Positions 3,196-29,782 of a DNA stretch of 64,000 bases are shown one piece after another. The position numbers and the translations under genes are program-made. The notes below the pieces were generated by a model that saw only the letters and a program-made list of their open reading frames with translations, was not told where the DNA came from and searched no databases. Position 1 is the stretch's first letter. Each line of letters starts with the position of its first letter. The stretch is taken from positions 1 to 64,000 of the forward strand of contig CAJXJR010000011.1 in assembly GCA_913055155.1 (NCBI GenBank), given 5' to 3'. Source of the stretch: an uncultured Erythrobacter sp. Lineage in GTDB: Bacteria > Pseudomonadota > Alphaproteobacteria > Sphingomonadales > Sphingomonadaceae.

Positions 3196-3253
3196 CGGGC
3201 AATCCTCTTCCCTTAAGAAACTCGCTGCGCCTCCTAGCGGGCAGCACAAAAGA

Positions 3254-3282: not shown

Positions 3283-3301
3283 CATGTTGCTTTGATGGAA
3301 A

Positions 3302-4162: not shown

Positions 4163-4205
4163 TGGCTCTTCTCCTCTTCGGGCGCGACTCGCACCCTTGC
4201 ATTAA

Positions 4206-4243: not shown

Positions 4244-4266
4244 CAACAATCGCTAGGGTCTGCGGC

Positions 4267-4686
4267 ATGGACGATCCGCTTACCAAGTTCCCCGGCTATT
4301 CGCTGCGCCGTGCCGCCAGCGCGGCAGGGGCCGAACTGGCCGCCCGGCTCGCCGAACTGGACCTGCGACAGACCGACGCCTCGGCCCTGCTGCTGATCGG
4401 CGCGAACCCCGATATCACTGCCAGCGCGCTGGGCCGCCAGCTGGATATCCAGCGCGCCAACATGGTGCCGCTGCTTAAGCGGCTGGAAGCCGCCGGTCTG
4501 GTGGAGCGTCACGCCATCGACGGCAAGTCGCAGGGCCTGGTGCTGACGGCAAAGGGGGCCGACGCCAGGGCGAAGGCGCTGGCGGTGATCGAGCATTTCG
4601 AAGGCCAGCTGCTGGCCCGCGTGCCGGAGGAACACCGTGACCACCTGCTGCCGGCGCTCAACGCGCTGTGGCTAGGCGAGAGCTAG
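4267..4686 (+). CDS. ferC: MarR-family regulator, probable ferBA repressor
   Basis: A 139-residue winged-helix protein. The recognition region ALGRQLDIQRANMVPLLKRL (about 59-78) and wing (LVERHAIDGKSQGLVLTAKG) fit MarR. It is transcribed divergently from ferBA across a region with two palindromes. In SYK-6, FerC is a MarR regulator beside ferBA that releases DNA when feruloyl-CoA or related thioesters bind. I chose the ATG at 4267 because the alternative TTG at 4231 would place the protein start inside the operator region. Confidence 0.8.
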   Translation: MDDPLTKFPGYSLRRAASAAGAELAARLAELDLRQTDASALLLIGANPDITASALGRQLDIQRANMVPLLKRLEAAGLVERHAIDGKSQGLVLTAKGADARAKALAVIEHFEGQLLARVPEEHRDHLLPALNALWLGES

Positions 4687-8682: not shown

Positions 8683-10375
<1,693 letters not shown>

Positions 10376-12063: not shown

Positions 12064-13235
12064 TGTTGGGCTTTCACGACCTTTACCCGCGCCTTCAGGT
12101 CGGTGCGGCAGAAGGCGTGCAGGAAGCAGGTCTGTTCGCCCATGTCGAGCGCGGCGCGGGCGAATTCGGCGTTCTCTTCGCTGTGCAGGTAGACGTGGGT
12201 TTCCACCGGGTCGGCCTGCCCTGCCTCGCCCGTGCCGCCGCTGGCCCCGCCGCGCGAGAAGTGGATGTCCTGCACCACGTTGTAGGCGGCAAGGTGCTTC
12301 TTCGCGATCTTCGCATAGCGGCCCAGCTGGGTCATGAAGCAGAAGCCGATCCCTGCGGCCATGTAACTGACGGCATCGGGCGCGCGACCTTCCTCGTCGC
12401 ACAGGAAATGGAAGATCGATCCGTGCGGGTTGAACAACTGCTGCTCGACCTGCTTCACCCCGTCATCGCGCAGAGTGCAGATGCCGCGGATATGCAGCAC
12501 CCGGTCCTGCTCTTCGGCCAGAGAGGATCCTTGCGAACTGGTTGCCTCGTCGGTCAGCGGGCTCATCCCCGCGCGGCGGGGCATGGGCTCGGCGGCCAGC
12601 GGGCGGACCCCGTCGATCAGGTGCTCGGGGTCTGGCGGCGGATCGGACTGTACCGGCTTCGCCTTGTCGGGGATCACCTGCCGGTCCTTGTGCGTCAGCG
12701 TGAACAGCGAATCCCTTTCCCCGCGCATCAGGCCGTTTAGCGGCGAGGCTGCCACCGCATCGCAAACCAGCGCGCGCAGGGTCTCTGCATCGGCGGGACT
12801 GTCGATCCGCGCTTCCAGCTCGATATCCCTTGCGCCTCCGGTCATGGTGCCCTTCAGCGCGCTGCCCTTCATGGTGTAGAAATTGTCCTGCACCAGCTCG
12901 ACCCGGTCCAGCGCGATGCCGCGCTGCTGCGCCAGCGCCAGCAGCTCGGTCATGTAGCTGGAGACCATGCCCACGGTGAGGAAGCTCAAGGGACACGGCG
13001 CCTCGTTGAACCCGTCGAGATAGGCGCCCTCGTCCGAGACGACGCGCCAGACCTGCCCGCTGGCGGAACTGGCAACCAGCCCTTCCTTCTGCATGACCGA
13101 CAGGGAACGCGCGGCAAAGCGCACCGCCTGCCCCAGCCGGTCCGGCGGCGGGGCAAGCCGGTCGCTGCCGCTCTCGACCGGGAAGAACAACGGGCGTGCG
13201 TCCGCGCCCAGGATGTTGTCGTGCCCCGCCATCAT
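12060..13235 (-). CDS. Tandem OsmC-domain protein
   Basis: A 391-residue cytosolic protein that looks like two OsmC/Ohr-type domains in one chain. The first (about 60-175) has EAPCPLSFLTVGMVSSYMTE, the central-helix pattern of the family. The second (about 240-390) has a matching helix with GFCFMTQLGRYAKIAKKHL and ends in TCFLHAFCRTDLKAR. OsmC proteins use cysteine thiols to reduce organic peroxides; here single cysteines sit near both central helices, so activity is uncertain. Start and stop overlap caiB and the 88-residue gene. In this operon it might protect against, or act on, electrophilic or peroxidic aromatic intermediates (inference). Confidence 0.6.
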   Translation of the reverse strand: MMAGHDNILGADARPLFFPVESGSDRLAPPPDRLGQAVRFAARSLSVMQKEGLVASSASGQVWRVVSDEGAYLDGFNEAPCPLSFLTVGMVSSYMTELLALAQQRGIALDRVELVQDNFYTMKGSALKGTMTGGARDIELEARIDSPADAETLRALVCDAVAASPLNGLMRGERDSLFTLTHKDRQVIPDKAKPVQSDPPPDPEHLIDGVRPLAAEPMPRRAGMSPLTDEATSSQGSSLAEEQDRVLHIRGICTLRDDGVKQVEQQLFNPHGSIFHFLCDEEGRAPDAVSYMAAGIGFCFMTQLGRYAKIAKKHLAAYNVVQDIHFSRGGASGGTGEAGQADPVETHVYLHSEENAEFARAALDMGEQTCFLHAFCRTDLKARVKVVKAQQ

Positions 13236-14350
13236 GCCTCTCCCTTCGGCATCATCGGCGACGGCTTGCCCAGCACCAGCTCGGCATCGGAGAACCTGAT
13301 CGGCGTGCGCAGGCCCTTCAGGCCGGGTTCTTCAAGATCGATCACCATGCCGCGCGCCTGGATCTGCGGATCGTCCAGCGCTTGCCTCACCGTGTTTATG
13401 GGGCCCGCCGGAATACCGCGGTTTTCCATCTTCAGCAGCACCTCGTCACGCCTCATCGCGGCAATGCGCTTGGCGATCGAGGCCGACAGCGACTTGCGAT
13501 GGGTCACGCGGCGGGCATTGGTGCTCCACTCGTCGCGCAGCGGCAGGTCTAGTGTCTCGGCAAAGCGCGCGAACTGGCGATCATTGCCCACGGCCACCAC
13601 CAGCCAGCCGTCCGCTGCCTCGAACGCCTCGTAAGGCACGATGTTGGGATGGGCATTGCCCAGCCGTCTGGGGCTGCGGCCGGAGACGAGGAAGTTCATC
13701 GCCTGGTTCGCCAGCGTGCCCACCATCACATCGAGCAGCGCCATGTCGACCTGCTGCCCGCGCCCGGTCTTCTCGCGCTGGTGCAGCGCCGCCTGGATGC
13801 CGATCACGGCATAAAGCCCGGTCATGATGTCGGCATAGGCCATGCCGATCTTGGTCGGCGGGCCGTCGGGGAAGCCGGTCAGGTCCATGATCCCGCTCAT
13901 GCCCTGCACGATGAAATCGTATCCGGCACGCGGCGCATAGGGACCATCGTGGCCAAAGCCGGTGATGGAGCAGTAGACGAGGCGCGGATTGGCATCCTTC
14001 AGGCTATCGTAGTCGAGCCCGAACTTCGCCAGGCTGCCGGTCTTGAAATTCTCGATCACCACGTCGGCATCGGCGATCAACGCCTTCACCCGGTTCAGGT
14101 CGTCCACACGATTTAAATCGGCGACGACGCTGTCCTTGCCGCGATTGGCGGCGTGGAAATAGGCGGCATCCTTGCTGCCATCGGGCCGCGTGATGAACGG
14201 CGGGCCCCATTTTCGGGTGTCGTCGCCGTCGGGGCTTTCGACCTTGTGGACCTCTGCACCGAGATCGGCCAGCACCTGCCCGGCGAAGGGTCCGGCAAGG
14301 ATGCGCGCAAGTTCGACGACCTTGAGGCCTTTCAGGGGTGCTTCGCTCAT
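13232..14350 (-). CDS. CaiB/BaiF family (class III) CoA-transferase
   Basis: A 372-residue enzyme of the formyl-CoA transferase family. Visible hallmarks are LKGLKVVELARILAGPFAGQ at the N-terminus, DLGAEVHKVE, the conserved NRGKDS region, GYDFIVQGMSG and AYADIMTGLYAVIGIQAAL, where the catalytic aspartate lies in the ADIMTG segment. Such enzymes move CoA between carboxylic acids. I start at the ATG giving MSEAPLKG; 20 extra upstream codons are unlike the family. It lies 14 bases after the amidohydrolase and overlaps the OsmC gene, so it probably activates an acid used or made in that pathway. Substrate unknown. Confidence 0.85.
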   Translation of the reverse strand: MSEAPLKGLKVVELARILAGPFAGQVLADLGAEVHKVESPDGDDTRKWGPPFITRPDGSKDAAYFHAANRGKDSVVADLNRVDDLNRVKALIADADVVIENFKTGSLAKFGLDYDSLKDANPRLVYCSITGFGHDGPYAPRAGYDFIVQGMSGIMDLTGFPDGPPTKIGMAYADIMTGLYAVIGIQAALHQREKTGRGQQVDMALLDVMVGTLANQAMNFLVSGRSPRRLGNAHPNIVPYEAFEAADGWLVVAVGNDRQFARFAETLDLPLRDEWSTNARRVTHRKSLSASIAKRIAAMRRDEVLLKMENRGIPAGPINTVRQALDDPQIQARGMVIDLEEPGLKGLRTPIRFSDAELVLGKPSPMMPKGEA

Positions 14351-14364
14351 GCGAAGCGTCCTAC

Positions 14365-15402
14365 CTACTCCGGCGCGATATGGAACACCCGTTCGGCATT
14401 GCCGTGGCACAGCGCGTGCATTTCATCCTCGGTGCATTCGAAGCTTTCGATGAAATCCACGGCCGGTTTCATCGGCTGGTAGGGGTAATCGATCGCCCAG
14501 ATCACGTTGTCGATGCCCATGCGATCGATAGCGTAGCGCAGCGCCAGGTGGTCTTCCACGCCGCTGGTGGTGAAGACGAAATTGTCGCGGAAGTATTCCT
14601 CCATGCTGCGCTGCGTCTTCGGTGCCCGCCCCACCTTCTGGGCGCGGCTGTTCATGAAATTGATCCGCCAGATGAAGAACGGCACCATCTCGCCCATGTG
14701 CCCCACGCAGATCTTCAGGTTGGGGAAATGGTCGAAAACCCCGCCAGCCATCATGCGCAGCATGTTGGTACCCACTTCCACGCCGTAGGCCCACATGGCC
14801 GAGTCCATCGCATAGTCCATCAGCGGGCCTTTCAGCGTGTCCGAGGGCCCGCGCGGGTGGATGTAGATGGTGGCATCGTGTGCCTCTGCCGCTTCGAAGA
14901 TCGGCCAGAACTTGGGATCGTCGAAATACTCGCCATTGGTGTGGCTGTTGACCACCAGGCCGTTCAGCCCAAGCTCGGTCATCGCCCGCTGCACTTCCTT
15001 GGCGGCGCGCTTTGGGCTGTGCGGGGCGAAGCTGGCCAGCCCGGCGAACCGATTGGGATACTTGCGGCAGATTTCCGCCATCCGGTCATTGCTGAGCGCG
15101 GCGAGTTCGGTGGCGGTATCGGCATCGAACATCTGCACGCCCGGCGCCGTCAGCGTGAGCAGGTGCATGTCCACGCCGAACTCGTCCATCTGCGACAGGC
15201 GCTGGCCTTCCACATCCTTCAGCCCGTCGAGGAAGTTCATCTTGCCATAGCCGCTGGCGTCGTGATCGGCATCGTAGATCCCGCCCACCAGCAGCTTGTC
15301 CGAACTTTGCGAAGGGCCGCGCGCCACCTTGCGCAGTTCCTCGGCTACTTCGGGGATCGTCCAGGCTTCCTCGCAGGCGATCAGGCGGCACTTCTTTCCC
15401 AT
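14365..15402 (-). CDS. Amidohydrolase-2 family enzyme, LigW/gamma-resorcylate-decarboxylase-like
   Basis: A 345-residue TIM-barrel metal enzyme. Ligands line up with the decarboxylase branch of the family: Glu11 (ACEEAW), His182 (YIHPRG), His235 (CVGHMGE) and Asp305 (AIDYPYQ); the E-E-A-W start replaces the usual His-x-His, as in LigW and gamma-resorcylate decarboxylase. TAPGVQMFD and LVVNSHTNGEYFDD also match that branch. These enzymes remove CO2 from hydroxybenzoates such as 5-carboxyvanillate without oxidation. It heads an operon with a CoA-transferase and an OsmC protein. A related ring-product hydrolase is possible. Confidence 0.75.
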   Translation of the reverse strand: MGKKCRLIACEEAWTIPEVAEELRKVARGPSQSSDKLLVGGIYDADHDASGYGKMNFLDGLKDVEGQRLSQMDEFGVDMHLLTLTAPGVQMFDADTATELAALSNDRMAEICRKYPNRFAGLASFAPHSPKRAAKEVQRAMTELGLNGLVVNSHTNGEYFDDPKFWPIFEAAEAHDATIYIHPRGPSDTLKGPLMDYAMDSAMWAYGVEVGTNMLRMMAGGVFDHFPNLKICVGHMGEMVPFFIWRINFMNSRAQKVGRAPKTQRSMEEYFRDNFVFTTSGVEDHLALRYAIDRMGIDNVIWAIDYPYQPMKPAVDFIESFECTEDEMHALCHGNAERVFHIAPE

Positions 15403-15593: not shown

Positions 15594-16352
15594 TCAGCCG
15601 GTCTGAACGGTGTCGCGATAATAGACGAGGTCGCCCAGCCAGTAGATGAAATCGGCCCACCCTTGGGTGGAGGAAACCGGCTGGTTGAACAGCTGCGGCA
15701 CCACGATCACCGCTGCGCCGATCCATGTCGCGCGGCTGATGCTGCCGGTCGTGCGCCACTCTTGCCACAGCACGGCGGCGAGGAAGGCGTTCATCGTCAT
15801 GTAGGTTTCCAGGAATGGCACGTAGTCCAGCCCCAGGCCCTGCATGTACACGCGGTTGATGCCCGGCATCAGGATGGCGATGGTTGCGATCAGCATCAGG
15901 TTGCGGTGCACCTGCGGCCTGCGTGCGGCGCGGATGGCCATGGCGAACAACACGGCAAAGCTGGGCGGCGCGATCACCGACAGGTAGAACACGCCCGGCC
16001 CGCTGCCCGACAGGTCGGTGGTGGAAGCGCCCACGATGGTGATGAAGCAGCCCATCGCCACCACCATGGTGCCCACGGCAATGCCGAACGTGCCCAGCGA
16101 ACGGTGCAGCTTTACCCGGCGCGCGTTCACCAGTGCCGATTGCACCACCAGCAATACCATCCAGCTGAAAAAGGTGATCCCGTGCAGGTGCACGATCGGC
16201 GGCGCCGGCGGAAAGGTTCCCGTCGCCAGCGGCCCGAGGTACGTCATGCCGAACCCGGTGAACACGAACGCGCTCATGCCCAGCGCCATCAGCAGGTGAA
16301 AGCTGGGCCTCCAGCGCGTGCGCGCGGCCTGTGGCGGTGCAGTGGTTGCCAT
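15594..16352 (-). CDS. Polytopic membrane protein of unknown function
   Basis: A 252-residue protein with about seven hydrophobic segments: FHLLMALGMSAFVFTGFG, then HLHGITFFSWMVLLVVQ, and further spans to the Trp/Tyr-rich end. Conserved-looking His residues (VHLHG, LHRSLG, VHRNLM) sit at segment ends, as in haem- or metal-associated membrane proteins, but I cannot name the family. The ATG was chosen for its strong GGGGAGAGGGA site; an upstream start is less likely. It is divergent from the AraC gene with 87 bases between. The 191 bases on its other side (15403-15593) show no gene or clear signal. Confidence 0.6.
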   Translation of the reverse strand: MATTAPPQAARTRWRPSFHLLMALGMSAFVFTGFGMTYLGPLATGTFPPAPPIVHLHGITFFSWMVLLVVQSALVNARRVKLHRSLGTFGIAVGTMVVAMGCFITIVGASTTDLSGSGPGVFYLSVIAPPSFAVLFAMAIRAARRPQVHRNLMLIATIAILMPGINRVYMQGLGLDYVPFLETYMTMNAFLAAVLWQEWRTTGSISRATWIGAAVIVVPQLFNQPVSSTQGWADFIYWLGDLVYYRDTVQTG

Positions 16353-16439
16353 GCGGTCCCTCTCCCCTTGAACCCTTTGCTGGCAGGTTAGCACGACACG
16401 GCGATTGCCAAATGAGATTTTTGCGCGTTAATTCGTCCT

Positions 16440-17411
16440 ATGGGAGAGCCGCGCAACACCGAAGACCAGAGCTGGACCTCTGCCGGGCTCGCCCGACCGG
16501 AGGCGCTGCGCGAATGGCGCGAGTGGGCCGCCAGCACCATCGCGCCGATCGAGGTGGAGGTGTTCGACACCGATGCCTTTGCCGCGCGCTGGATTTCCCA
16601 CGGCATCGGCCAGCTGCGGCTGCTGCACCTGCATGCTCCGGCCCAGCGGGTGACGCACACCGGCGCCGAAGGCAGCGCGGGCCGCGCCGCGCCATCGATC
16701 CAGCTGGTATGGTCGCGCCACGGGGCGATGAAAACGCAGATGCAGGGCAAGAGCTTTGTCATCGAACCCGGCCAGTTCGTGCTGCTCGACAACACCCGTT
16801 TCTACCAGATGGAGATGGACACCGAGCACGAGTGCCTCGACCTGATGATGCCGCACGGCTGGCTGGAGCGGCACCTGCCCGATCCCGGCGCCCTGCTGGC
16901 GCGTCCGATCGAAACGCGCGAAGGCTGGGGCAAGCCGCTGGGCGCGCTGCTGGAGACCATGCTGGACCGGCTGGACGAAGCGCCCCTGCCCCGCCCGCTG
17001 ATCGCCGAACAGGTGGGCACCCTGCTGTCACTGGCGACGGGGGTGGACGAGCCTGCGCAAGGCACGCGCCATCGCGGGCAGCTGGCGCGCCGCATCCTGC
17101 GCCGCATCGAAAGCGACTATGCCGACCCTTCGCTCTCGCCCGAGCGGGTGGCGGAGGATTGCGGTATCTCCAAGCGCTACCTGCAGACGCTGCTGGCAGG
17201 CAGCGGCACCAGCTTCGTGCAGGAGCTGAACGCGATGCGGCTGGACCGGGCAAGCGACATGCTGGCCGATCCGCGCGCGAACGGCCTGCCGGTGGCGGAC
17301 ATCGCCTTTCGCAACGGCTTCCTCGATCCCGGCTATTTCACCCGCCTGTTCCGCAAGCGCTTCGGCATCACCCCCAGCGCCTGGCGCGCCGGGCACGCAC
17401 CGCAAAGCTGA
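16440..17411 (+). CDS. AraC-family transcriptional activator
   Basis: A 323-residue regulator. The N-terminal part (about 30-190) is a cupin-like ligand domain of the AraC-binding-2 type. The C-terminal part (about 215-318) holds two helix-turn-helix units: LSPERVAEDCGISKRYLQTL and VADIAFRNGFLDPGYFTRLF, then RKRFGITPSAWR, the AraC signature. Such regulators usually activate aromatic or fatty-acid catabolic operons when a pathway compound binds. It is followed by an alpha/beta hydrolase 12 bases later and then the aryl-ketone-type cluster, its likeliest target. Divergent from a membrane protein. Confidence 0.85.
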   Translation: MGEPRNTEDQSWTSAGLARPEALREWREWAASTIAPIEVEVFDTDAFAARWISHGIGQLRLLHLHAPAQRVTHTGAEGSAGRAAPSIQLVWSRHGAMKTQMQGKSFVIEPGQFVLLDNTRFYQMEMDTEHECLDLMMPHGWLERHLPDPGALLARPIETREGWGKPLGALLETMLDRLDEAPLPRPLIAEQVGTLLSLATGVDEPAQGTRHRGQLARRILRRIESDYADPSLSPERVAEDCGISKRYLQTLLAGSGTSFVQELNAMRLDRASDMLADPRANGLPVADIAFRNGFLDPGYFTRLFRKRFGITPSAWRAGHAPQS

Positions 17412-17423
17412 GCGAGCACGGAG

Positions 17424-18308
17424 ATGAAGATCCTCCTCGCTCTTGGCGTTCTGGTGGTGCTGGCCGCAGTGGGCCTGGGGCTGGCTTACCTCGTCTCGCC
17501 CCTGCACACCTTCGATAAGCTGGTGCCCAAGGATGCCGGGGGCGAGAAGATTGCGGAAGGCCTGGCCTATGGCGATGGCGAGCGGCAGGCGCTGGATATC
17601 TATGCCCCTGTCGGCGACGGCGAGAGCCCGCGCCCGGTGGTTGTGTTCTTCTACGGCGGCAGCTGGAACAGCGGCACGCGCGAAGGCTATAACTTCGCCG
17701 GGCGCGCACTGGCTGCGCAGGGCTATATCGTGGTGGTGCCCGACTACCGGCTGGTGCCGCAGGTGCACTTCCCCGCCTTCGTGCAGGACGGCGCCGATGC
17801 CGTGCGCTGGGTGCGCGCGAACGTGGCCGATTACGGTGGCGATCCCGACCGGATCGTGCTGATGGGCCATTCCGCGGGCGCGCATATTGCCGCCATGCTG
17901 GCCAACGATCCGCAATGGCTGGGTGACGACCGCGCCGCGCTGCGCGGCCTCGTCGGGCTGGCCGGCCCCTATGACTTCGCCCCGTTCGATACCGCCGCCG
18001 CGATCGAGGCGTTCGGCGAATGGCCGCGCGTCGAGGAAACCCAGCCGGTCACCTTTGCCGGACCTGGCGCGCCGCCTGCCCTGCTGCTGACGGGCGAGGA
18101 CGATACCACGGTCAAGCCGCGCAACAGCCGGGCGCTTTCGGCGGCGTTGACGGCAGCGGGTGTATCGGCGCAGATGGTGACATATCCGGGCGTCGATCAC
18201 ATCAATGTGCTGATCGCGCTGTCCCGCCCGCTGCGCAGCCGCGCGCCGGTGCTGGCCGATGCCAGCGCCTTCATCGACCGGGTTACGCGCCGCGCCACGG
18301 CGAATTAG
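17424..18308 (+). CDS. Membrane-anchored alpha/beta hydrolase (BD-FAE/esterase type)
   Basis: A 294-residue hydrolase with one N-terminal hydrophobic segment (about 4-25) that anchors or exports it. The oxyanion-hole motif is FFYGGSWNSG (H-G-G type with Tyr for His), the nucleophile is Ser in MGHSAGAH, the acid is in GEDDTT and the base in GVDHIN. This set fits the bacterial feruloyl-esterase-like BD-FAE and carboxylesterase group. Release of hydroxycinnamates or other esters at the cell surface would suit the neighbouring ferulate genes, but the substrate is inferred only. It lies 12 bases after araC and is probably co-transcribed. Confidence 0.75.
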   Translation: MKILLALGVLVVLAAVGLGLAYLVSPLHTFDKLVPKDAGGEKIAEGLAYGDGERQALDIYAPVGDGESPRPVVVFFYGGSWNSGTREGYNFAGRALAAQGYIVVVPDYRLVPQVHFPAFVQDGADAVRWVRANVADYGGDPDRIVLMGHSAGAHIAAMLANDPQWLGDDRAALRGLVGLAGPYDFAPFDTAAAIEAFGEWPRVEETQPVTFAGPGAPPALLLTGEDDTTVKPRNSRALSAALTAAGVSAQMVTYPGVDHINVLIALSRPLRSRAPVLADASAFIDRVTRRATAN

Positions 18309-18467
18309 ACAAAACACCCTGCGCTTTTATCCCATTGCCCTTGCGCGCGAATCCTTTGCGCGGGGCGCGCTGCCGCGTAATCTCCAGCCTTTACCGCTGC
18401 ACGTGGACGAGCCCACACAACAAGGGACGCCGCGCCGTGGCCAGCATTTGAGAGGATGCGAAAAGCG

Positions 18468-20309
18468 ATGTCGGAAAAAGGTTTTCCCCTACCCAGCTCG
18501 ATCAAGGTGATTCCGGGCACGGAAGAGGCGCAGGCCGCCTATCCCTATTACACCCAGTTCGTGCCAGAGGACGACGAGAAGTTCTGGTTCTACAACTCGA
18601 TGCACTTCCCCGAGCCGATGCATCATTTCGACATGATCACGGCAGAAGCCGCCTATGTCGCCATGGGTGCCTTCAACACCCGCGTGCACGTGCTGCCCAC
18701 GGCCAAGGGGGTCGATCACCGCATCATCAACGGCCGCGTCTACATCGGCGGCGTGGTGGTGACCGATCCTGACGAGATTGCCGAGCGCACCGAGGAATTC
18801 CAGCAGCGCGCGTTCTATTACTACGAGCACTGGGAAGACCTCTACGCCCAGTGGAAGGACAAGATGAAGGCGCTGATCGCGGATGCGCAGGCGCTGCCCA
18901 GCCCTGCCCTGCCGAAGTACGAGCCGGTGGAGACCTTCAAGGAAGGCGACGCGGTGCCCGCTAGCCACGACCTGCTGAAGATTTACCAGCAGCAGGTGGA
19001 AGGCTACCACCGTATGTGGCACCACCACTTCGAGTTCCTGCTGCTGGGCTACGGCGCCTACATGACCTTCTTCGATTTCTGCAAGAAGGCCTTTCCGGAG
19101 ATTTCCGACCAGGCGATCAGCCGCATGGTCGCGGGCATGGAGGCGGAAATCTTCCGTCCCGACGAAGAGGTGAAACGCCTCGCTCGCCGCGCGGTGGAAC
19201 TGGGCGTGGACCACCACTTCACCGACGACATGAACATCGACCAGGTGCTGGCCGATCTCGATGCGCTGGGCGAACACGGCAAGCACTGGCTGGATGAACT
19301 GGAAACCAGCCGCAACCCGTGGTTCAACGTGTCCAGCGGCGACGGCTTCTACCACTATCACCGCAGCTGGAACGACGACCTGTCACTGCCTTTCGCCGCG
19401 CTTCCCGGCTATATCGAGAAAATCAAGGCGGGCGAGAATGTTACGCGCCCGACCGAACAATTGATCGAGGAACGCGAGCAACTTGTCGCCGACTATCGCG
19501 AACTGCTCGACACCGAGGAAGACAAGGCCACTTACGACCAGCTGATCGGCCTGGCGCACCGCGTGTTCCCCTATGTGGAGGGACACAAGTTCTATTGCGA
19601 GCACTGGTACACCAACCTGTTCTTCAACAAGATCCGCGAATTCGGCGCGCTGCTGGCGGAGCACGATTTCTTCGGCCCCGAAGGCGTGGAGGAAGACGTG
19701 TTCCACCTCACGCAATACGAGCTGGAAAGCGCGATCATCGACCTTATGCTGAGCTGGGGCGTAGGTGCGGAGCCGCGCGGGCCCAAGCACTGGCCTGCCC
19801 TGGTGGCACAGCGAAAGGCGGCGATTGCCGAGTGGGACAAGCATCCCACCCCGCCGGCGCTTGGCAACGTGCCCGATGCCATCGACGATCCGGCGATCAA
19901 CATGCTGTGGGGCATCACCCGGGAGAACCTCGATTCCTGGCTCGACGACGGGGCGGAGAACGAGAAGGAGCTGAAAGGCTTTGCCGCCTGCTCCGGCGTG
20001 GTCGAAGGCACGGCACGCGTGGTGAAGTCGGTTTCCGAAATCGGGCGCATCCAGCAGGGCGATATCCTGGTGTGCCAGGTGACGAACCCCACCTGGTCGC
20101 CGATCTTCCAGAAGATCGGGGCGGCTGTTTCCGATATCGGCGGCAGCATGAGCCACATGGCCATCGTGGCGCGCGAATACGGCCTGCCTGCCGTGGTCGG
20201 CACCGGCAAGGCCACCACCCGCATCAAGGACGGCCAGCGCATCCGCGTGGACGGTGGCAAGGGCACCGTCACCATTCTCGACGACGAACCCGTGCTCGAG
20301 GACGCATAG
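18468..20309 (+). CDS. Phosphohistidine-domain subunit of a PEP-synthase-like aryl dikinase (AcvA/HpeH or phenylphosphate-synthase type)
   Basis: A 613-residue protein. The last 90 residues form the swivelling phospho-His domain of PEP synthase: CSGVVEGTARVV, then GGSMSHMAIVARE with catalytic His563, then YGLPAVVGTG. The large N-terminal part (about 1-510), rich in His, Trp and Tyr (MWHHHFEFLLLGYG), is not PEP synthase and probably holds the phenolic substrate. Phenylphosphate synthase of Thauera and the acetovanillone kinases AcvAB/HpeHI have this split: a large swivel subunit beside a separate ATP-grasp subunit, the next gene here, 4 bases on. It should transfer a phosphoryl group from ATP to a phenol hydroxyl. 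ATG 18468 has AGAGG at proper spacing; the ATG at 18456 does not. Confidence 0.8.
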   Translation: MSEKGFPLPSSIKVIPGTEEAQAAYPYYTQFVPEDDEKFWFYNSMHFPEPMHHFDMITAEAAYVAMGAFNTRVHVLPTAKGVDHRIINGRVYIGGVVVTDPDEIAERTEEFQQRAFYYYEHWEDLYAQWKDKMKALIADAQALPSPALPKYEPVETFKEGDAVPASHDLLKIYQQQVEGYHRMWHHHFEFLLLGYGAYMTFFDFCKKAFPEISDQAISRMVAGMEAEIFRPDEEVKRLARRAVELGVDHHFTDDMNIDQVLADLDALGEHGKHWLDELETSRNPWFNVSSGDGFYHYHRSWNDDLSLPFAALPGYIEKIKAGENVTRPTEQLIEEREQLVADYRELLDTEEDKATYDQLIGLAHRVFPYVEGHKFYCEHWYTNLFFNKIREFGALLAEHDFFGPEGVEEDVFHLTQYELESAIIDLMLSWGVGAEPRGPKHWPALVAQRKAAIAEWDKHPTPPALGNVPDAIDDPAINMLWGITRENLDSWLDDGAENEKELKGFAACSGVVEGTARVVKSVSEIGRIQQGDILVCQVTNPTWSPIFQKIGAAVSDIGGSMSHMAIVAREYGLPAVVGTGKATTRIKDGQRIRVDGGKGTVTILDDEPVLEDA

Positions 20310-20313
20310 AGCC

Positions 20314-21366
20314 ATGACGCAAGCAGTTGCATGGTTTGCCGATGTCGGCATTGCCGATCGTCCCACCGTGGGCGGCAAGGGCGGCTCTCTGGGTGAACTG
20401 ACACAAGCCGGCATCGACGTGCCGCCCGGCTTTGTCGTCACCGTGGCCGCCTTCGAGGAATTCCTGGCGGCGCTGGAAGCCAGGGAGCCGATCCGCCCGC
20501 TGGTAGAGGCGCTCGATCCTACCGATCTGGGCGCGGCCACGAAGCTGTCCGAACAGCTGCGCGCCCGCGTGATGGAAGAGCCCATGCCCGCCAGCGTGCG
20601 CGAAGCCTTGAAAAGCGCCCACGCGCAGCTGTGCGAGGACGGCCAGCCCGTCGCCGTGCGCAGCTCTGCCACCACCGAGGATGCCGAGGACGCCAGCTTT
20701 GCCGGCTTGCAGGATACCTTCCTGTGGGTGCTCGATGCCGACGACATGCTGGAGCGGGTGCGCGAATGCTGGGCCTCGCTCTACTCGGTCGAATCGATGA
20801 CCTATCGCCGCAAGCAGGACTTTCCCGAAGATGGCGTGGCCATGGCCGTAGTGGTGCAGCGCATGGTCGATGCGAAATGCGCCGGCGTGATGTTCACCCG
20901 CAGCCCCACCAGCGGCGACAAGTCGGTCATCACCATCGAGGGTGCCTGGGGCCTTGGCAGCGCGGTCGTCTCTGGCGAAGTCACGCCCGACAAATGGGTG
21001 GTGGGCAAGATCACCGGCGAGATCAGCCAGCGCGACATTTCCGACAAGCACGCCCGGCAGGTGCCCGCCCCCGAAGGCGGCGGCATCGTGGAGGTAGAGA
21101 ACGAGGCGGACAGGCGTTCCGCTCCCTGTCTTACCGATGACGAGCTGATGGCGCTGCGCGAAGTGGGTCGCAAGATCGAGCGCCACTATGGCAAGCCGCA
21201 GGATATCGAATGGGCGCTGGACCAGGACGGCAAGGTCCTGCTGCTGCAATCGCGCCCCGAAACCGTGTGGGCCATGAAGGATGCCGAGGCCAAGCCGGTG
21301 GCAGAGCCGACCGGCAGCCCGCTTTCCCACGTAATGGGCATTTTCAGCGGAGGTCCGAAGAAGTGA
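20314..21366 (+). CDS. ATP-grasp (PEP-synthase N-domain) subunit of the aryl dikinase (AcvB/HpeI type)
   Basis: A 350-residue protein covering only the nucleotide-binding part of PEP synthase. It shows VGGKGGSLGEL (about 18-28), GIDVPPGFVVT, VAVRSSATTEDAEDASFAGL with the ATP-binding Arg, MVDAKCAGVMFTRSP, and the end DIEWALDQDGKVLLLQSRPE. It lacks the phospho-His and PEP domains, which are supplied in part by the upstream gene. It would pyrophosphorylate the partner's histidine using ATP. The start at 20314 lies 4 bases past the preceding stop, and its TGA overlaps the GTG of the biotin-carrier gene. Confidence 0.85.
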   Translation: MTQAVAWFADVGIADRPTVGGKGGSLGELTQAGIDVPPGFVVTVAAFEEFLAALEAREPIRPLVEALDPTDLGAATKLSEQLRARVMEEPMPASVREALKSAHAQLCEDGQPVAVRSSATTEDAEDASFAGLQDTFLWVLDADDMLERVRECWASLYSVESMTYRRKQDFPEDGVAMAVVVQRMVDAKCAGVMFTRSPTSGDKSVITIEGAWGLGSAVVSGEVTPDKWVVGKITGEISQRDISDKHARQVPAPEGGGIVEVENEADRRSAPCLTDDELMALREVGRKIERHYGKPQDIEWALDQDGKVLLLQSRPETVWAMKDAEAKPVAEPTGSPLSHVMGIFSGGPKK

Positions 21367-21872
21367 GCCTGACTGGCAAGGACGTCGCTGAAATCGCGCG
21401 GCTGCTGGCGGAGAGCCAGTTCTCCTCGCTCGACCTGAAAATGGGCGACTTCAAGTTGCGCATCCGCCGGGATGGCGCCGGCGGTGGTGGCCGCTGGGTA
21501 GCGGAAGAGGACGAGCCGCACGAAGACCAGCCGCAGCCGGCAGGCAATGCCGGTGTCGAACCGCCGCCCTCCCCGCCACCTGCGGGCAGTGCAGAGCACC
21601 CGAGCGCGGCTGACGCGGGCCCGGATGCTGGTGAAGTCGACGTGCCCGCCCCGCTGCTGGGTAACTACTACGCCGCTCCGCGCCCCGGCGAGGACCCCTT
21701 CGTGGCCGTGGGTGACCGGGTGGAGCCCGACACGGTGATCGCCATCATCGAGGTGATGAAGCTGATGAATTCCGTACGCGCGGGCGTTTCAGGCACGGTG
21801 ACTGCCGTGCTGCCCGAGAACGGCAGCGCCATCGAAAAGGGCCAGCCGATCATCCGGGTTAAGGTGGACTGA
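21363..21872 (+). CDS. Biotin carboxyl carrier protein of a dedicated carboxylase
   Basis: A 169-residue AccB-like protein. The N-terminal helix region (VAEIARLLAESQFSSLDLKM, then FKLRIRRDG) matches AccB; a Pro/Ala/Glu-rich linker follows (about 45-95); the C-terminal biotinyl domain carries the attachment lysine in IEVMKLMNS (most carriers have EAMKMMN). The GTG start overlaps the previous stop as GTGA. It should carry carboxybiotin to the carboxyltransferase encoded after the inserted repeat. No biotin carboxylase gene is present nearby, so it may rely on housekeeping AccC (inference). Confidence 0.85.
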   Translation: MSLTGKDVAEIARLLAESQFSSLDLKMGDFKLRIRRDGAGGGGRWVAEEDEPHEDQPQPAGNAGVEPPPSPPPAGSAEHPSAADAGPDAGEVDVPAPLLGNYYAAPRPGEDPFVAVGDRVEPDTVIAIIEVMKLMNSVRAGVSGTVTAVLPENGSAIEKGQPIIRVKVD

Positions 21873-21987
21873 TGTTGCATCATTTTTCCTTCGTCATTCC
21901 CGCGAAAGCGGGAATCCAGCGAGCGCGTCGTAAAAGTTTCTGGATCCCCGCCTTCGCGGGGATGACGAACAAGAGGGTGGACTGATG
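21863..21987. mobile_element. REPIN/MITE-like insertion with 12-bp direct repeats inside an operon
   Basis: Two 28-base arms (21892-21919 and 21940-21967) are reverse complements with three mismatches, and each folds on itself (CCCGC-GAAA-GCGGG and CCCCGC-CTTC-GCGGGG). This is the arrangement of paired REP sequences (REPIN) mobilised by RAYT transposases. The element is bordered by GGTGGACTGATG at 21863-21874 and again at 21976-21987, a probable 12-bp target duplication. The repeat contains the end of the carrier gene and the start of the next gene. Without the insert the two genes would join as TGATG. Confidence 0.75.
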
Positions 21988-23445
21988 GCCAATATCCAGA
22001 TCGTCGAAACGTCTCTCCGAGACGGTAACCAGTGCCTTTGGGGTGCCACCGGGATCGACACCGCGAAAACCCTCTCCATTGCGCCCGCGATGGAACGCGC
22101 AGGCTTCTCTGCCATCGATTTCACCACCTCAACCCATATGGGCGTGGCCGTGCGATACAAGCAGGAAGACCCGTGGGAACGCATTCGCGCCATGGCGAAT
22201 ATCTGCAAGACCACGCCGCTGCAGTTCCTTTCCACCGGCTTCCGCTTCATCGCCTGGGAAACCGCCACGCCCGATTTCATGGAGCTGGCCTTTGCCACGC
22301 TGGCGCGCAACGGCATCCGCCGCTTTGCCCTGGCAGACCCGATGAACGATGCGAAGTCGAACGTCGAAGTGGCCAGCATGGTAAAGCGCGCTGGCGGCGA
22401 GCAGGTGGTGGGCGCGCTGGTCTTCTCGATCAGCCCGATCCACGACGACGCGCACTATGCCGCAGCCGCGCGCACCATGGCCGCAAGCAAGGATATCGAC
22501 GCGCTCTACATCAAGGATCCAGGCGGGCTGCTCACCTCCAAGCGCGCGCAGACGCTGATCCCCGCGATCATGGCCGAGATCGGAGACAAGCCGCTGGAAT
22601 TGCATTCGCACTCCACCATCGGCCTTGCCGAGCAGGCCTATTGCGAAGCTGCCGACATGGGCATCACCGCACTGCAATGCGCCAGCGGCGGGCTGGCCAG
22701 CGGCACCTCGCACCCATCGGTGCGCGGCACGGTCGCCAACCTTCGCGCGCTGGGCCACACGGTCGATATCGATGACGAGGCTGTCGACGAAATCTCCGAC
22801 TGGTTCACCGCCATCGCCGATGCGGAAAACCTGCCCAAGGGCGAGCCGATGCATTTCGATGCCGCCTATTTCCAGCACAACCTGCCCGGCGGCATGGTCG
22901 GCACCATGCGCCGCCACCTGGCCGACCAGGGCGTGCCCGAACTGGAAGGCAAGGTGATCGAGGAAATGGGCCGCGTGCGCCAGGAACTGGGCTGGCCGAT
23001 CGTGATGACGCCGTTCGCGCAGATGCTGCAGACGCAAGCGGTGATGAACGTGACTTCGGACGAACGCTGGTCGGTCATTCCGGACGAGATCATCCGCTTC
23101 GCCATCGGCAAGTTCGGGCGGCCCAATGCGCCCGTCGATCCCGAGGTGATGGACCGCATCATGGCCAATCCGCGCACCAAGGAACTGGAAGCCGAAAAGG
23201 GCATGGCCGATGTCGCCATGCTCCGCAAGAAGCTTGGTGAGGACCTGTCGGACGAGGAATTCCTGCTGCGCGCCACCATGCCGCAGAACCTGGTCGACGC
23301 GATGCAGGCCGCCGGCCCCGCAGAGCGCGAGTACGATCCGAAAAAGGTGCCGCTGATGAACCTGCTGAGGGAGGTGCTGCAGCGCACGGACATCGACGAG
23401 TTCAGCTTCGAGAACGACGAAATCGCGGTAGATATCGAAAGCTAG
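21985..23445 (+). CDS. HMGL-like biotin-dependent carboxyltransferase subunit
   Basis: A 486-residue TIM-barrel protein of the pyruvate carboxylase / oxaloacetate decarboxylase alpha group. Signs are VETSLRDGNQCLWG (metal and substrate binding, usually D-x-T-x-R-D-x-x-Q-S), the carboxybiotin-site lysine in IDALYIKDPGGLL, and ELHSHSTIGLAEQ, whose His-x-His binds the metal. The C-terminal region (about 340-486) is the conserved PYC-OADA helical domain. It would carboxylate the methyl group of an aryl ketone after the dikinase has phosphorylated its phenol, as in Acv/Hpe carboxylases; ordinary pyruvate carboxylation is the main alternative. Its ATG lies in the second copy of the insertion's direct repeat. 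Confidence 0.8.
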   Translation: MANIQIVETSLRDGNQCLWGATGIDTAKTLSIAPAMERAGFSAIDFTTSTHMGVAVRYKQEDPWERIRAMANICKTTPLQFLSTGFRFIAWETATPDFMELAFATLARNGIRRFALADPMNDAKSNVEVASMVKRAGGEQVVGALVFSISPIHDDAHYAAAARTMAASKDIDALYIKDPGGLLTSKRAQTLIPAIMAEIGDKPLELHSHSTIGLAEQAYCEAADMGITALQCASGGLASGTSHPSVRGTVANLRALGHTVDIDDEAVDEISDWFTAIADAENLPKGEPMHFDAAYFQHNLPGGMVGTMRRHLADQGVPELEGKVIEEMGRVRQELGWPIVMTPFAQMLQTQAVMNVTSDERWSVIPDEIIRFAIGKFGRPNAPVDPEVMDRIMANPRTKELEAEKGMADVAMLRKKLGEDLSDEEFLLRATMPQNLVDAMQAAGPAEREYDPKKVPLMNLLREVLQRTDIDEFSFENDEIAVDIES

Positions 23446-23562
23446 CGCGCGCCAGCTTTCCTACCCGGCCCGCGCAAGCCCAGAACGCATCGATGCCGCC
23501 GCTCCAACCTCATGTTCTTTCGAATTTTTCTATCCATTTGCGCGCTGGCGCGATTCCTTCCC

Positions 23563-23592
23563 CAGGACAGTGCTCCATGTGCTCCAGATTAG
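23563..23592 (+). repeat. Dispersed intergenic repeat, copy 1
   Basis: A 30-base segment beginning CAGGACAG and containing two tandem GTGCTCCA units, matching 34615-34644 at 28 of 30 positions. It ends 10 bases before the HAD phosphatase ATG and replaces a clear ribosome site. I find no other copy in the window. Confidence 0.65.
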
Positions 23593-23602
23593 GTGACTGC
23601 CA

Positions 23603-24421
23603 ATGAGAACGCCCAAGGGTTTCATGTTCGACCTGGACGGGACGCTGATCCTGTCGAATCGCAAGCTGGGCAGCTATGACGCCATTCCCGGCGCGGCGGA
23701 GGCCTTGCAGGAACTGGACGCGCTGGACATTCCGTGGATCGCGCTGACTAACGGCAGCGCCTATGCCAGCCGCGTACAGGCGCCGCGCTTGCGGGCGGTC
23801 GGCTTGCCTGTACCCGACGAAAAGCTGTTCACGCCAAACTCCGTCGCAGCCAAGGTGATCGGCGATGTGGGGTACGAACGCGTGCTGGTGCTGGGCACCG
23901 ATGGCGTGACGCAGGCGCTGGAAGAGCTGGGCGTATCCTGCGTATCGGCCGATGCAGAGGATACCACTTGCGATGCCGTTTACGTCGCCTGGCATCCCGA
24001 TTGCACCATGCCGCATATCCATGCCGCCTGCGATGCGGTGATGGGCGGCGCGGCGTTCCTCTCCGCCTCCGACGTGCCCTTTTTCGCCACCAAGGAAGGC
24101 CGCAGCTTCGGCTATAGTTGCGCCATCAACGGCGCGGTGAGCCGCGTGACGGGGGTGGAACCCCAGCCCACCGGCAAGCCCAGCGCCCACGCGCTGGACT
24201 TCATCGCCAGCCAGCTGGGCGTGGCGAAGGAAGACGTTGGTGTGGTGGGCGACGATCCCACGGCGGAAATGCAGATGGCGCGCGAAGGCGGGGCGATCGG
24301 CATTGCCGTCACCAGCGGCTCTACCAGCGCGGAAGAGTGGGCCAGCCAGCCGCCGGGAAAGACGCCTGACGTGGTGCTTGGCGGGATTGCGGAGTTGGTG
24401 GACACCTTCGGCTTGCGCTAA
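23603..24421 (+). CDS. HAD-superfamily IIA phosphatase (AcvF/HpeD candidate)
   Basis: A 272-residue HAD phosphatase. Motif I is FDLDGTL (nucleophile and acid-base Asp), motif II is LTNGS, motif III the Lys in TGKPSAHAL and motif IV GDDPTAEM. A large cap between motifs II and III marks subclass IIA (NagD and 4-nitrophenyl phosphatase type). Acetovanillone pathways need a phosphatase to remove the aryl phosphate after carboxylation, which this could do; general phosphatase activity is the alternative. It is 157 bases after the carboxyltransferase, with a dispersed repeat in the gap, so it may have its own promoter. Confidence 0.8.
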   Translation: MRTPKGFMFDLDGTLILSNRKLGSYDAIPGAAEALQELDALDIPWIALTNGSAYASRVQAPRLRAVGLPVPDEKLFTPNSVAAKVIGDVGYERVLVLGTDGVTQALEELGVSCVSADAEDTTCDAVYVAWHPDCTMPHIHAACDAVMGGAAFLSASDVPFFATKEGRSFGYSCAINGAVSRVTGVEPQPTGKPSAHALDFIASQLGVAKEDVGVVGDDPTAEMQMAREGGAIGIAVTSGSTSAEEWASQPPGKTPDVVLGGIAELVDTFGLR

Positions 24422-24446: not shown

Positions 24447-24899
24447 ATGCAGCTTGGCCGCTTCAACCACGTCGGCATTGCCGTGCCCGATCTAGCCTCT
24501 GCCATTGCGCACTACCGCGAGGTGCTTGGCGCGACCGACATTACCGAACCCTTCGACTTGCCCGAACAGGGCGTGAAGGTATGCTTCGTGAACACCCCGG
24601 GCCACGATGGCACCGAAGGCACGCAGGTTGAGCTGCTGGCCCCGCTGAGCGAGGAGTCGCCGGTGACCAACTTCCTCGCCAAGGAGCCGCTGGGCGGGCA
24701 GCACCACGTGTGCTTCGAAGTGCCCGATATCGAGGCCGCGCGGGCAGAGTTCGAGGGTATGGGCAAGCGTATCCTGGGCCCCACCCGCATCGGCGCGCAC
24801 GGCACGCCGATATTCTTCGTCCACCCCAAGGACATGATGGGCCAGCTGACCGAGATCATGGAAAGCCCGAAGGGTGACCGGGAGGGTCTTGGGCATTGA
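24447..24899 (+). CDS. VOC-family protein resembling methylmalonyl-CoA epimerase
   Basis: A 150-residue protein with two beta-alpha-beta-beta-beta modules. The metal ligands of methylmalonyl-CoA epimerase are apparent: His in FNHVGIAVPDL (about residue 7), His in QHHVCFEVPDI and Glu near the end in GQLTEIMES. The length and ends fit epimerases, but a VOC enzyme acting on another enolisable compound is equally compatible. No methylmalonyl-CoA mutase or propionyl-CoA carboxylase is in the window, while an aryl-ketone carboxylation cluster lies directly upstream. A strong AAGGAGA site precedes the ATG. The stop overlaps the next start. Confidence 0.75.
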   Translation: MQLGRFNHVGIAVPDLASAIAHYREVLGATDITEPFDLPEQGVKVCFVNTPGHDGTEGTQVELLAPLSEESPVTNFLAKEPLGGQHHVCFEVPDIEAARAEFEGMGKRILGPTRIGAHGTPIFFVHPKDMMGQLTEIMESPKGDREGLGH

Positions 24900-25711
24900 G
24901 CTTCGACTACCCCGCCTACCTCGACTGTTTCCTGAGCGGTGACGACGATGCGCTGGTGGCGCGCTTCTTCGCGCCGGATTGCGAAATGCGCTCTGCCAGC
25001 GGCGTGCGGCGCGGGCATGAAGGAATGCGCGAATTCCTGGCCTGGGCGCATGACGGGGTGCGCGAATGCCCGCGCGTGCAGCATTACCTGCAGGATGCCG
25101 ACACGGTTTTTGCCGATATCGACATGGATTTCCACGCGACCGCGCACCGCCCGGATTTCCCCTTCGGCGAAATGCATCCCGGCGACAGCCTGACGGTGAA
25201 ATTCCTCGCCCGCTACGACCTCGACGACAACGGGCGGGTCAAGGTCCTCACCACTGCCGCATGGCCGCCGGGCGTGGGCGTCACCACGCTGCCGCCGCTG
25301 GGCGGGCATCCCAGCCAGGTCGCCGCCTACCACGCCTATGCCGCCGCCTTTTCGGCCGGCGATCCCGCCCGCTACACCCGCTTCTACACCGACGACGTGG
25401 TGCTGGAACTGGGCTCCGTCCCGCGGATCGAAGGCGCTGCGGGGATCGCCGATTTCTACACGCGGATGTTCCAGACCGTGCGCGAGACGCTGACGATCCA
25501 CGATCTCGACGCGACCGACGAACACCTGGTGGTCGATTGCACCAGCCGCTTCACCGCCATTGCCGATGCGCCCGACTTCGTGGTTGCGCCGCTGGCCAAG
25601 GGCGATTTCGTCGAGGTGGGCGTGAAGGTCACATATACCCTGCGCGATGGATACGTGGCGCACATCGGCATCGAGCGCACCCGTGCGCCGCAGGTGACGC
25701 GCGCCGGGTGA
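24896..25711 (+). CDS. Tandem SnoaL/NTF2-like protein
   Basis: A 271-residue cytosolic protein made of two SnoaL-type cone domains (about 1-125 and 138-265). Both begin with a Y-x-x-Y-x-x-x-F-x-x-G-D helix and a G-x-x-G-I-x-x-F turn. Such domains serve as small-molecule isomerases, hydratases, decarboxylases or binding proteins. The start is TTG, overlapping the TGA of the VOC gene, with GGAGGGT upstream at good spacing. Coupling to the VOC gene and position after the aryl-ketone cluster suggest a part in processing its product. No catalytic residues can be named. Confidence 0.6.
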   Translation: MSFDYPAYLDCFLSGDDDALVARFFAPDCEMRSASGVRRGHEGMREFLAWAHDGVRECPRVQHYLQDADTVFADIDMDFHATAHRPDFPFGEMHPGDSLTVKFLARYDLDDNGRVKVLTTAAWPPGVGVTTLPPLGGHPSQVAAYHAYAAAFSAGDPARYTRFYTDDVVLELGSVPRIEGAAGIADFYTRMFQTVRETLTIHDLDATDEHLVVDCTSRFTAIADAPDFVVAPLAKGDFVEVGVKVTYTLRDGYVAHIGIERTRAPQVTRAG

Positions 25712-26193: not shown

Positions 26194-26777
26194 GCCGTTT
26201 GACCGCGCAGCAGCTGCTCGACATGCGCCAGGTCTTCGGGCCGGTCGACATCGGCCAGCATGCCTTGCGGAGCGGTAACCGTTTCGAGCCGGTCCAGCGA
26301 CGCCAGCAGCGGGCCAGCGCCACGCTCTCCGGCAAGGTCGCGGAAGGCGGACAGGTCTTTGTTACGGATCAGCGCCGGTACACCAGGGCGGCCATCGGGA
26401 TACACGGTGGCGGCATTGCCGGCACTTAGCACAAGGCGGCTCAAGTGCGCAGGATCGAGCAAGGGCATGTCGGCCAGCAGCAGCAGCACGTCGCAGGCCA
26501 GCGCCTCGGCTTCGCGCACGGCCAGCGCGACCGACGTGCCCAGCCCCGCCTCGGGCGCGTCGTTCTCCAGCAATGCCCAGCCGTGCGCGGCATCGGCGAA
26601 GGCGGGCACGTCGGGCCCGACGACGATGAGGCCCGGCTCCAGCCCGGCAGTACTGACGGCGTCGAGCGTCCATTGCCCCAGCGGCTTTCCGCACAGGTCC
26701 GCATCCAGTTTGCCCCCGCCGAAGCGGCTGGCAAGCCCGGCGGCCAGAACCGCCACCAGCGGCTGGCCTTCAGGCAT
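26190..26777 (-). CDS. MobA/MocA-like molybdopterin nucleotidyltransferase
   Basis: A 195-residue Rossmann-type NTP transferase. VLAAGLASRFGGGK at the N-terminus is the nucleotide-binding loop; LLLLADMPLLD carries the metal-binding Asp typical of MocA (CTP to molybdopterin cytosine dinucleotide); GRPGVPALI also fits. It should load the cofactor of a xanthine-dehydrogenase-type hydroxylase. The ATG lies within the end of xdhC (8-base overlap), so the two are coupled. The longer upstream start is rejected because it would run deep into xdhC. Confidence 0.8.
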   Translation of the reverse strand: MPEGQPLVAVLAAGLASRFGGGKLDADLCGKPLGQWTLDAVSTAGLEPGLIVVGPDVPAFADAAHGWALLENDAPEAGLGTSVALAVREAEALACDVLLLLADMPLLDPAHLSRLVLSAGNAATVYPDGRPGVPALIRNKDLSAFRDLAGERGAGPLLASLDRLETVTAPQGMLADVDRPEDLAHVEQLLRGQTA

Positions 26778-27612: not shown

Positions 27613-27615
27613 GCC

Positions 27616-28575: not shown

Positions 28576-28577
28576 TG

Positions 28578-29666: not shown

Positions 29667-29782
29667 CGTTAATACTTTGTTGCGCGAATAACACGGCAAG
29701 GCGACGGAATACCAATTGTTACAAGCACCGGCTTGGAACGCGGAAGTTGTGGGCTTAAGAGATTGTTGGAATTGGGGATTTG

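Follow-up and report, generated by a model that had tools for sequence, protein, structure and literature searches.

A putative Acv/Hpe-type aryl-ketone operon without a biotin carboxylase gene in an uncultured Erythrobacter

The operon and its characterised relatives

The window, meaning the whole stretch of DNA analysed here, comprises bases 1-64000 of contig CAJXJR010000011.1 (our contig C11) in the 3.10-Mb genome of an uncultured Erythrobacter sp. (GCA_913055155.1). A Pfam domain search places five co-directional genes on its + strand at 18456-24421, encoding a swivelling phospho-histidine protein, a separate ATP-grasp protein, a biotin carrier, a carboxyltransferase (CT) and a HAD phosphatase, in agreement with the initial annotation of this DNA. 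We consider it very likely that the operon functions in the manner of the Acv and Hpe systems, and we find that it encodes no biotin carboxylase (BC). The features of the operon are the following.

18456..20309, + strand: dikinase alpha, with substrate-binding and swivel domains, AcvA/HpeH orthologue (PEP-utilizers swivel, 83.4 bits)
20314..21366, + strand: dikinase beta, ATP-grasp, AcvB/HpeI orthologue (ATG start; PPDK_N, 348.5 bits)
21363..21872, + strand: biotin carrier of the BC-less type, for which we use our own name BCCP-b (Biotin_lipoyl, 60.8 bits)
21873..21984, no strand: carrier-CT spacer of 112 bp, a long inverted repeat where SYK-6 has the BC gene
21985..23445, + strand: CT, orthologue of the SYK-6 Acv CT (ATG start; PYC_OADA, 77.8 bits; HMGL-like, 53.0 bits)
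23603..24421, + strand: HAD-IIA phosphatase, AcvF/HpeD orthologue (ATG start; Hydrolase_6, 66.3 bits)

The ATG at 18456 was taken as the start of the swivel protein; counted from there, the phospho-histidine is His567, which is the previously annotated His563 when numbering begins at the second in-frame ATG (18468). It closes the motif SDIGGSMSH, which 59 of 61 homologues share (the remaining pair was not examined), and the published T/S-x-x-G-G-x-x-x-H motif, described with the His581 mechanism of the dikinase (PMC12167813), is satisfied by the window protein. The carrier gene begins with a GTG at 21363 that overlaps the stop of the ATP-grasp gene, and its product contains EVMKLMN.

GTDB species genomes were scanned with the window CT, yielding 74 loci (given L numbers below), of which the nearest are from Aurantiacibacter (91-94 %). 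Among them, L009-L013 are the nearest full loci, and all five share the gene order of the window, with 62-94 % identity per gene. When compared with five relatives, the ratio of non-synonymous to synonymous substitution (dN/dS) is 0.08-0.12 for the CT, the lowest of the five genes, 0.13-0.19 for the carrier, 0.13-0.26 for the ATP-grasp protein and 0.15-0.26 for both the swivel protein and the phosphatase. The operon genes are under purifying selection, and because the order recurs in L009-L013 and the ratios span 0.08-0.26, the operon is not a chance arrangement.

The acv operon of Sphingobium sp. (lignivorans) SYK-6 is among the 74 loci (L049). Comparison with its six genes, as the initial annotation had proposed, matched five in the same order, with identities of 79 % (swivel), 71 % (ATP-grasp), 43 % (carrier), 73 % (CT) and 61 % (phosphatase). 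By sequence, SYK-6 AcvABCDEF is the nearest characterised relative among those compared, and an AraC regulator (75 %) lies upstream in both. It differs from the window in two ways: its carrier and CT genes flank a BC gene (L049 6633-7997), and its carrier belongs to the BC-bearing group. The acvABCDEF genes are homologous and syntenic to hpe, and are essential for growth of SYK-6 on acetovanillone (PMC9618137). In the Hpe system acetovanillone and 4-hydroxyacetophenone are phosphorylated by HpeHI; HpeCBA carboxylates the resulting esters, with no carboxylation of the free ketones detected, and HpeD removes the phosphate. HpeB is printed there as the CT and HpeA as the BC (PMC9618137). Clusters with "various combinations" of hpe homologues are also mentioned (PMC13101465, PMC9618137).

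HpeHICBADEF of Rhodococcus rhodochrous GD02 was compared only by way of the plasmid cluster of Rhodococcus sp. JS3073 (L165), in which swivel, ATP-grasp, carrier, BC, CT, HAD, CoA ligase and amidohydrolase genes follow one another. Identities to the window are 46, 44, 60 (over 70 aa only), 44 and 34 % for swivel, ATP-grasp, carrier, CT and HAD, respectively. The Rhodococcus cluster holds BC, CoA ligase (HpeE) and amidohydrolase (HpeF) within the operon, whereas the window operon lacks all three. The initial annotation had named best matches to pyruvate carboxylases as part of what would speak against its assignment. None of the pyruvate carboxylase or oxaloacetate decarboxylase models reached its cut-off for the CT (best 294.3 against 402 bits), so this part of the objection does not apply. 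The linked carrier and CT, together with 79 % identity to AcvA, argue against a phenylphosphate synthase (PpsAB) or CreHI cresol kinase, of which no named reference was compared.

Carboxylase operons of a second kind, with a UPF0261 (Tm-1-like) protein, occur on pBAR1 of Sphingomonas bisphenolicum AO1, on a plasmid of Pseudomonas putida YC-AE1 and in Sphingomonadaceae (L133, L135-L138). They resemble the window in their carrier, CT (46-51 %) and HAD homologues; unlike the window, they have their own BC and a UPF0261 ATP-binding protein in the kinase's place, with no swivel/ATP-grasp dikinase in the stretches read. The pBAR1 (L164 2856-10357) and YC-AE1 (L163 2635-11225) operons come with BKACE and thioesterase genes, or with CoA ligase and amidohydrolase genes. 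Operons of this kind are possibly a different activation route for 4-hydroxyacetophenone. On a Rhizobium leguminosarum plasmid (NZ_CP125638.1, ~602-608 kb), swivel (55 %) and CT (51 %) homologues lie ~3 kb apart, likely marking another acv-type operon.

The missing biotin carboxylase and the carrier type

In SYK-6 and JS3073 the carrier gene is followed by BC and then CT, whereas just 112 bp separate carrier and CT in the window. A tblastn search of the 64-kb window with two BC proteins gave nothing significant (best E 0.14), and no BC remnant was seen in the spacer at 21873-21984. The carboxylase as encoded in the window is incomplete, and must therefore take its BC from elsewhere. The initial annotation had the operon follow the same logic as Acv and Hpe; the matches to SYK-6 uphold this for the pathway, while a complete carboxylase is not encoded. 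As RNA, the spacer folds with -58.6 kcal/mol (z -6.54). We rejected the idea that its repeat led to the loss of BC. By pattern, 3 of 32 BC-less gaps, not counting that of the window, hold a related element, and so does the carrier-BC gap of SYK-6, which has the BC.

Between carrier and CT, a BC is present in 37 of the 74 loci and absent from 32, with 5 not judgeable. Record titles assign most BC-less loci to Erythrobacteraceae and some no further than Sphingomonadales or Alphaproteobacteria, and one is a Novosphingobium metagenome-assembled genome (MAG; L032). In the CT tree L066, from Novosphingobium sp. B 225, and L074, from a gammaproteobacterial MAG, lie away from the other BC-less loci. 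A BC is present in SYK-6 and further Sphingobium, in three Altericroceibacterium, in Croceibacterium xixiisoli, in the Acidobacteriota and in the judged Gammaproteobacteria apart from L074.

The operon might be decayed or repurposed, with a carboxylase dead since BC loss and a kinase-phosphatase pair serving elsewhere, for example in detoxification by phosphorylation. A subunit of the GD02 and SYK-6 systems is indeed missing, and L036 also has no visible HAD gene. Set against this, with L066 and L074 put aside, 27 of the remaining 30 BC-less loci have the complete set of five genes, L015 and L024 being truncated by the ends of their contigs. It is also the CT that has the lowest dN/dS. The CT residues R12-Q16 (R12DGNQ16), K177, H207, H209 and T342, whose roles we assume from pyruvate carboxylase, are invariant in 33 of 33 BC-less rows, and EVMKLM is found in 67 of 67 carriers. 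Decay is thus very unlikely in our estimation.

A carrier tree was built from 66 rows. Besides the window it holds 65 of 67 carriers, sequences no longer than 130 aa having been left out. It separates 32 of the 33 BC-less rows, L066 included, from the 33 BC-bearing rows and L074 (support 100/100, branch 0.75). BCCP-b and the absence of BC thus go together, L074 excepted. Four genomes outside the 74 loci agree with a carrier type that tracks BC absence: identity to the window carrier is 66 and 60 % for BC-less L140 and L143, and 46 and 45 % for BC-bearing L144 and L145. The CT tree (70 rows) has four changes of BC label, three of them forced by supported branches, and places L066 as sister to BC-bearing L072 (100/97). 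In this Novosphingobium operon, then, the CT groups with BC-bearing ones and the carrier is of the BC-less type. For a constrained test the CT set was thinned to 51 rows, with L074 outside the BC-less group; a single BC-less group was rejected (p value of the approximately unbiased test, p-AU, 0.000186).

On one possible reading the carrier decides which BC is used, in the form of an exchangeable cassette, either BCCP-a with a dedicated BC or BCCP-b alone and charged by the AccC of the host. BCCP-b would have moved laterally into a different acv lineage, that of Novosphingobium sp. B 225, which is also BC-less. We give this proposal an even chance. When type-2 carriers were added to the tree, the BC-less carriers stayed one group (15 of 15 chosen rows, 97/96), and the BC-bearing acv carriers as one group were not rejected (p-AU 0.381).

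Candidate partners of the carrier

We next consider where the BC comes from. The SYK-6 BC protein was searched against 39 genomes (given G numbers), 31 of them BC-less, our own included, and 8 BC-bearing controls. All 8 controls give a match of 71-100 %, whereas none of the 31 BC-less genomes holds a close relative of the operon BC (>60 %) elsewhere. An AccC-type BC is possessed by 29 of these 31. The best match is of AccC type at 49-52 % in 25 of them, while G003, G017, G030 and G040 have a best match of 54-60 % as well as an AccC-type one. The Erythrobacter genome itself has three BC domains: AccC beside accB, which is the best match to the SYK-6 BC (50 %), and two in longer frames of 707 and 668 aa, which by their length we take to be fused alpha subunits.

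The window carrier aligns to the AccB model TIGR00531 over residues 7-167 (95.7 bits, below the cut-off of 115.2), and in the alignment it shows an extra loop also found in AccB, which we take to be the "thumb". All 18 of the loci L095-L112 contain an AccB-type frame, and AccB likeness was scored with a hidden Markov model of 18 AccB domains. Means were 68.4 bits (standard deviation 6.8) for BC-less and 61.3 bits (standard deviation 5.3) for BC-bearing carriers, with overlapping ranges. The BC-less consensus has the AccB letter at alignment columns 52, 53, 60 and 76, and the BC-bearing consensus at column 11.

Because the operon has no BC, we propose that BCCP-b is charged by AccC, the housekeeping BC of fatty-acid synthesis. 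An Acv/Hpe-type operon for acetovanillone or 4-hydroxyacetophenone, with a distinct carrier charged in this way, is on sequence grounds our preferred and probable reading. We infer the following order of reactions. The two-part dikinase (18456-21366) would transfer the beta-phosphate of ATP to His567 and on to the phenol, and the CT would pass CO2 from carboxybiotin on the operon carrier to the methyl ketone. Removal of the phosphate by the HAD phosphatase would leave an aryl beta-keto acid, to be converted to vanillate or 4-hydroxybenzoate. That a single BC can work with more than one carboxyltransferase has a precedent in acetyl-CoA carboxylase AccB/AccC and the shared alpha subunits of actinobacteria; in those cases the carrier is shared as well, whereas the window operon keeps its own.

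Alternatively, the carrier could be charged by the BC domain of a fused alpha subunit of the propionyl-CoA or methylcrotonyl-CoA carboxylase type. The two longer BC proteins would be available for this, and in L017, L020, L022 and L044 a BC-domain gene (43-46 % to the SYK-6 BC) follows the operon at a distance of ~4-6 kb, and a methylmalonyl-CoA epimerase homologue lies between the two. This linkage is, however, seen in 4 of 32 BC-less loci, many of which end before that distance; the operon carrier is AccB-like over its length, and fused alpha subunits usually carry their own biotin domain. We regard charging by a fused subunit as unlikely. Still less probable is a transcarboxylase, in which carrier and CT would move a carboxyl group from another carboxylated metabolite to the phospho-ketone and spare ATP, as the Propionibacterium 5S/1.3S/12S enzyme acts. 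The CT does match transcarboxylase 5S in the PDB (1s3h, E 6.6e-46), and just behind the operon lies a gene of the methylmalonyl-CoA epimerase family. The CTs of pyruvate carboxylase and of oxaloacetate decarboxylase give stronger matches (E 2.6e-54 and 6.6e-54), no second carboxyltransferase is among the five genes, and the epimerase homologue is present in just 12 of 74 loci.

Returning to an Acv/Hpe-type operon charged by AccC, a number of observations weigh against it. Four of the 31 BC-less genomes carry a further, non-AccC BC. In G003, G017 (best match) and G030 this belongs to a second carboxylase operon, complete with a carrier and CT (46-48 %) of that operon, two further G017 BCs not being examined; in G040 it belongs to a more distant one (CT 34 %). 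No AccC-type BC was seen in 2 of the 31, G004 having no BC at all and G012 only long ones; our guess is that incomplete data account for both. L074 lacks a BC and yet has the ordinary carrier type, making the rule imperfect. If L066 is left out, a single BC-less CT group is no longer rejected (p-AU 0.123), so the firm case for carrier exchange comes from L066, where the CT alone was treed; one old inherited event is possible for the other BC-less loci. BCCP-b is nearest to type-2 carriers (91/93), which come with their own BC, and carrier type alone is therefore no proof of AccC use. Including AccB rows leaves the BC-less group weakly supported (79/42), and AccB lies far off in a group of its own on a very long branch; an origin of BCCP-b as a copy of AccB is not supported. 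The likeness of BCCP-b to AccB is modest, confounded by ancestry and suggestive only. The HAD phosphatase gene not seen in L036 counts on the same side, as do two results on the end of the pathway. An HpeE-like CoA ligase was found in 0 of 11 genomes (threshold E 1e-100, in a search without positive control), and BKACE (PF05853), present in 8 of 12 genomes, has no match in our own. BKACE as the terminal enzyme was our guess, prompted further by its position on pBAR1. With neither enzyme found in this genome, the terminal CoA steps are unexplained.

Lignin context, substrate and implications

The surroundings of the operon contain the following genes.

1075-3249: NDP-forming acyl-CoA synthetase
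3302-4162: hydroxycinnamoyl-CoA hydratase/lyase (421.5 bits, cut-off 276)
4231-4686: MarR gene
9129-10375: ligAB
10451-11800: aldehyde dehydrogenase
13232..14410, - strand: class III CoA-transferase beside the amidohydrolase (CoA_transf_3, 408 bits)
14365..15402, - strand: Amidohydrolase 2, 5-carboxyvanillate-decarboxylase-like (4icm, 381.8 bits over residues 5-342)
16440..17411, + strand: AraC-family regulator (HTH_18 and AraC_binding_2; 75 % in SYK-6), kept upstream of the operon
17424..18308, + strand: alpha/beta hydrolase (BD-FAE), here only in the nearest relatives (five loci, L009-L013)
24447..24899, + strand: VOC protein of the methylmalonyl-CoA epimerase family (TIGR03081, 129.5 bits, cut-off 114.95), neighbour
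24896..25711, + strand: SnoaL/NTF2-like protein, neighbour
45045-46303: second ligAB-like pair of another subfamily (PRK13364-type, 472.9 bits, cut-off 290)

The synthetase, hydratase/lyase and MarR genes (1075-4686) presumably correspond to ferBA/ferC of SYK-6, and the genome has five LigB matches. Together the surroundings point to guaiacyl-lignin catabolism. Of 21 genomes that carry an acv-type CT (at least 72 %), 18 have the amidohydrolase too, compared with 1 of 178 that lack such a CT; p 1.5e-21 is overstated here since the genomes are related. This co-occurrence more likely reflects shared guaiacyl-lignin catabolism. We dropped the amidohydrolase as an HpeF analogue, its nearest solved structure being 5-carboxyvanillate decarboxylase and its identity to the P. 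putida HpeF-like protein 20 % over ~150 aa. The adjacent class III CoA-transferase, with homologues in 15 of 25 amidohydrolase loci compared (window included), may be a candidate for CoA activation. On contig C18 a VanA-type Rieske oxygenase and a GcvT-like protein are encoded close to an HpeF-like amidohydrolase (G000:C18:1680-2534; 61 % to the YC-AE1 homologue). The VanA-like and GcvT-like genes, pobA, the ferulate-type genes and ligAB give the operon a vanillate/PCA setting, which is in keeping with our preferred reading. In SYK-6 (G036), the HpeF-like amidohydrolase of P. putida has a 63 % homologue at C1:1379912-1380757, in contrast to the statement of PMC9618137 that SYK-6 is without HpeE/HpeF homologues; the P. 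putida protein is 53 % identical to the JS3073 one.

Among the closer neighbours, matches to the AraC regulator occur in 42 of 74 loci and include distant ones, and operon membership of the alpha/beta hydrolase is uncertain. The VOC gene was dropped as a pathway enzyme, given its score as a methylmalonyl-CoA epimerase and its presence in only 12 of 74 loci. The SnoaL/NTF2-like protein is 38 % identical over 138 aa to an NTF2-like gene product upstream of the pBAR1 carboxylase operon. A 266-aa open frame between amidohydrolase and AraC regulator (15594-16394) has no Pfam match and one homologue among the loci (L041, 67 %). Downstream, XdhC/CoxI-like, metallo-beta-lactamase and HupE/UreJ-like genes (26770-29873, minus strand) are kept in 12-14 loci.

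Sequence cannot settle the choice between acetovanillone, 4-hydroxyacetophenone and acetosyringone. The genome has pobA on contig C10 (619.8 bits, cut-off 538.7), and 4-hydroxyacetophenone is equally possible as the substrate. A phenolic methyl ketone other than acetovanillone, be it acetosyringone or 4-hydroxyacetophenone from bisphenol-type compounds, is the less favoured alternative, yet one we take more seriously than those above. Related carboxylase operons do sit on plasmids of S. bisphenolicum AO1 and P. putida YC-AE1, and SYK-6 also grows on acetosyringone (PMC13101465). The guaiacyl-lignin context, with ferulate-type genes, ligAB and a carboxyvanillate-decarboxylase-like gene, speaks rather for acetovanillone.

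The best reading of a BC-less Acv/Hpe operon with a distinct carrier is a new form of a known pathway. In the open-licence literature, supplements excluded, we found no account that describes BC-less operons, names AccC as the partner or places such operons in Erythrobacteraceae. Growth on these lignin ketones is reported for just four strains or their mutants (PMC13101465). The operon predicts that Erythrobacteraceae can use these ketones, of which we found no report in the same literature. The BC-less variant is kept in many Erythrobacteraceae-type genomes. If our reading is correct, the carrier would be the part of a multi-subunit carboxylase that sets the choice of partner, and a smaller gene set would be available for engineering. 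Lignin breakdown in these bacteria would then be tied to fatty-acid synthesis through one shared subunit, and perhaps linked to its control.

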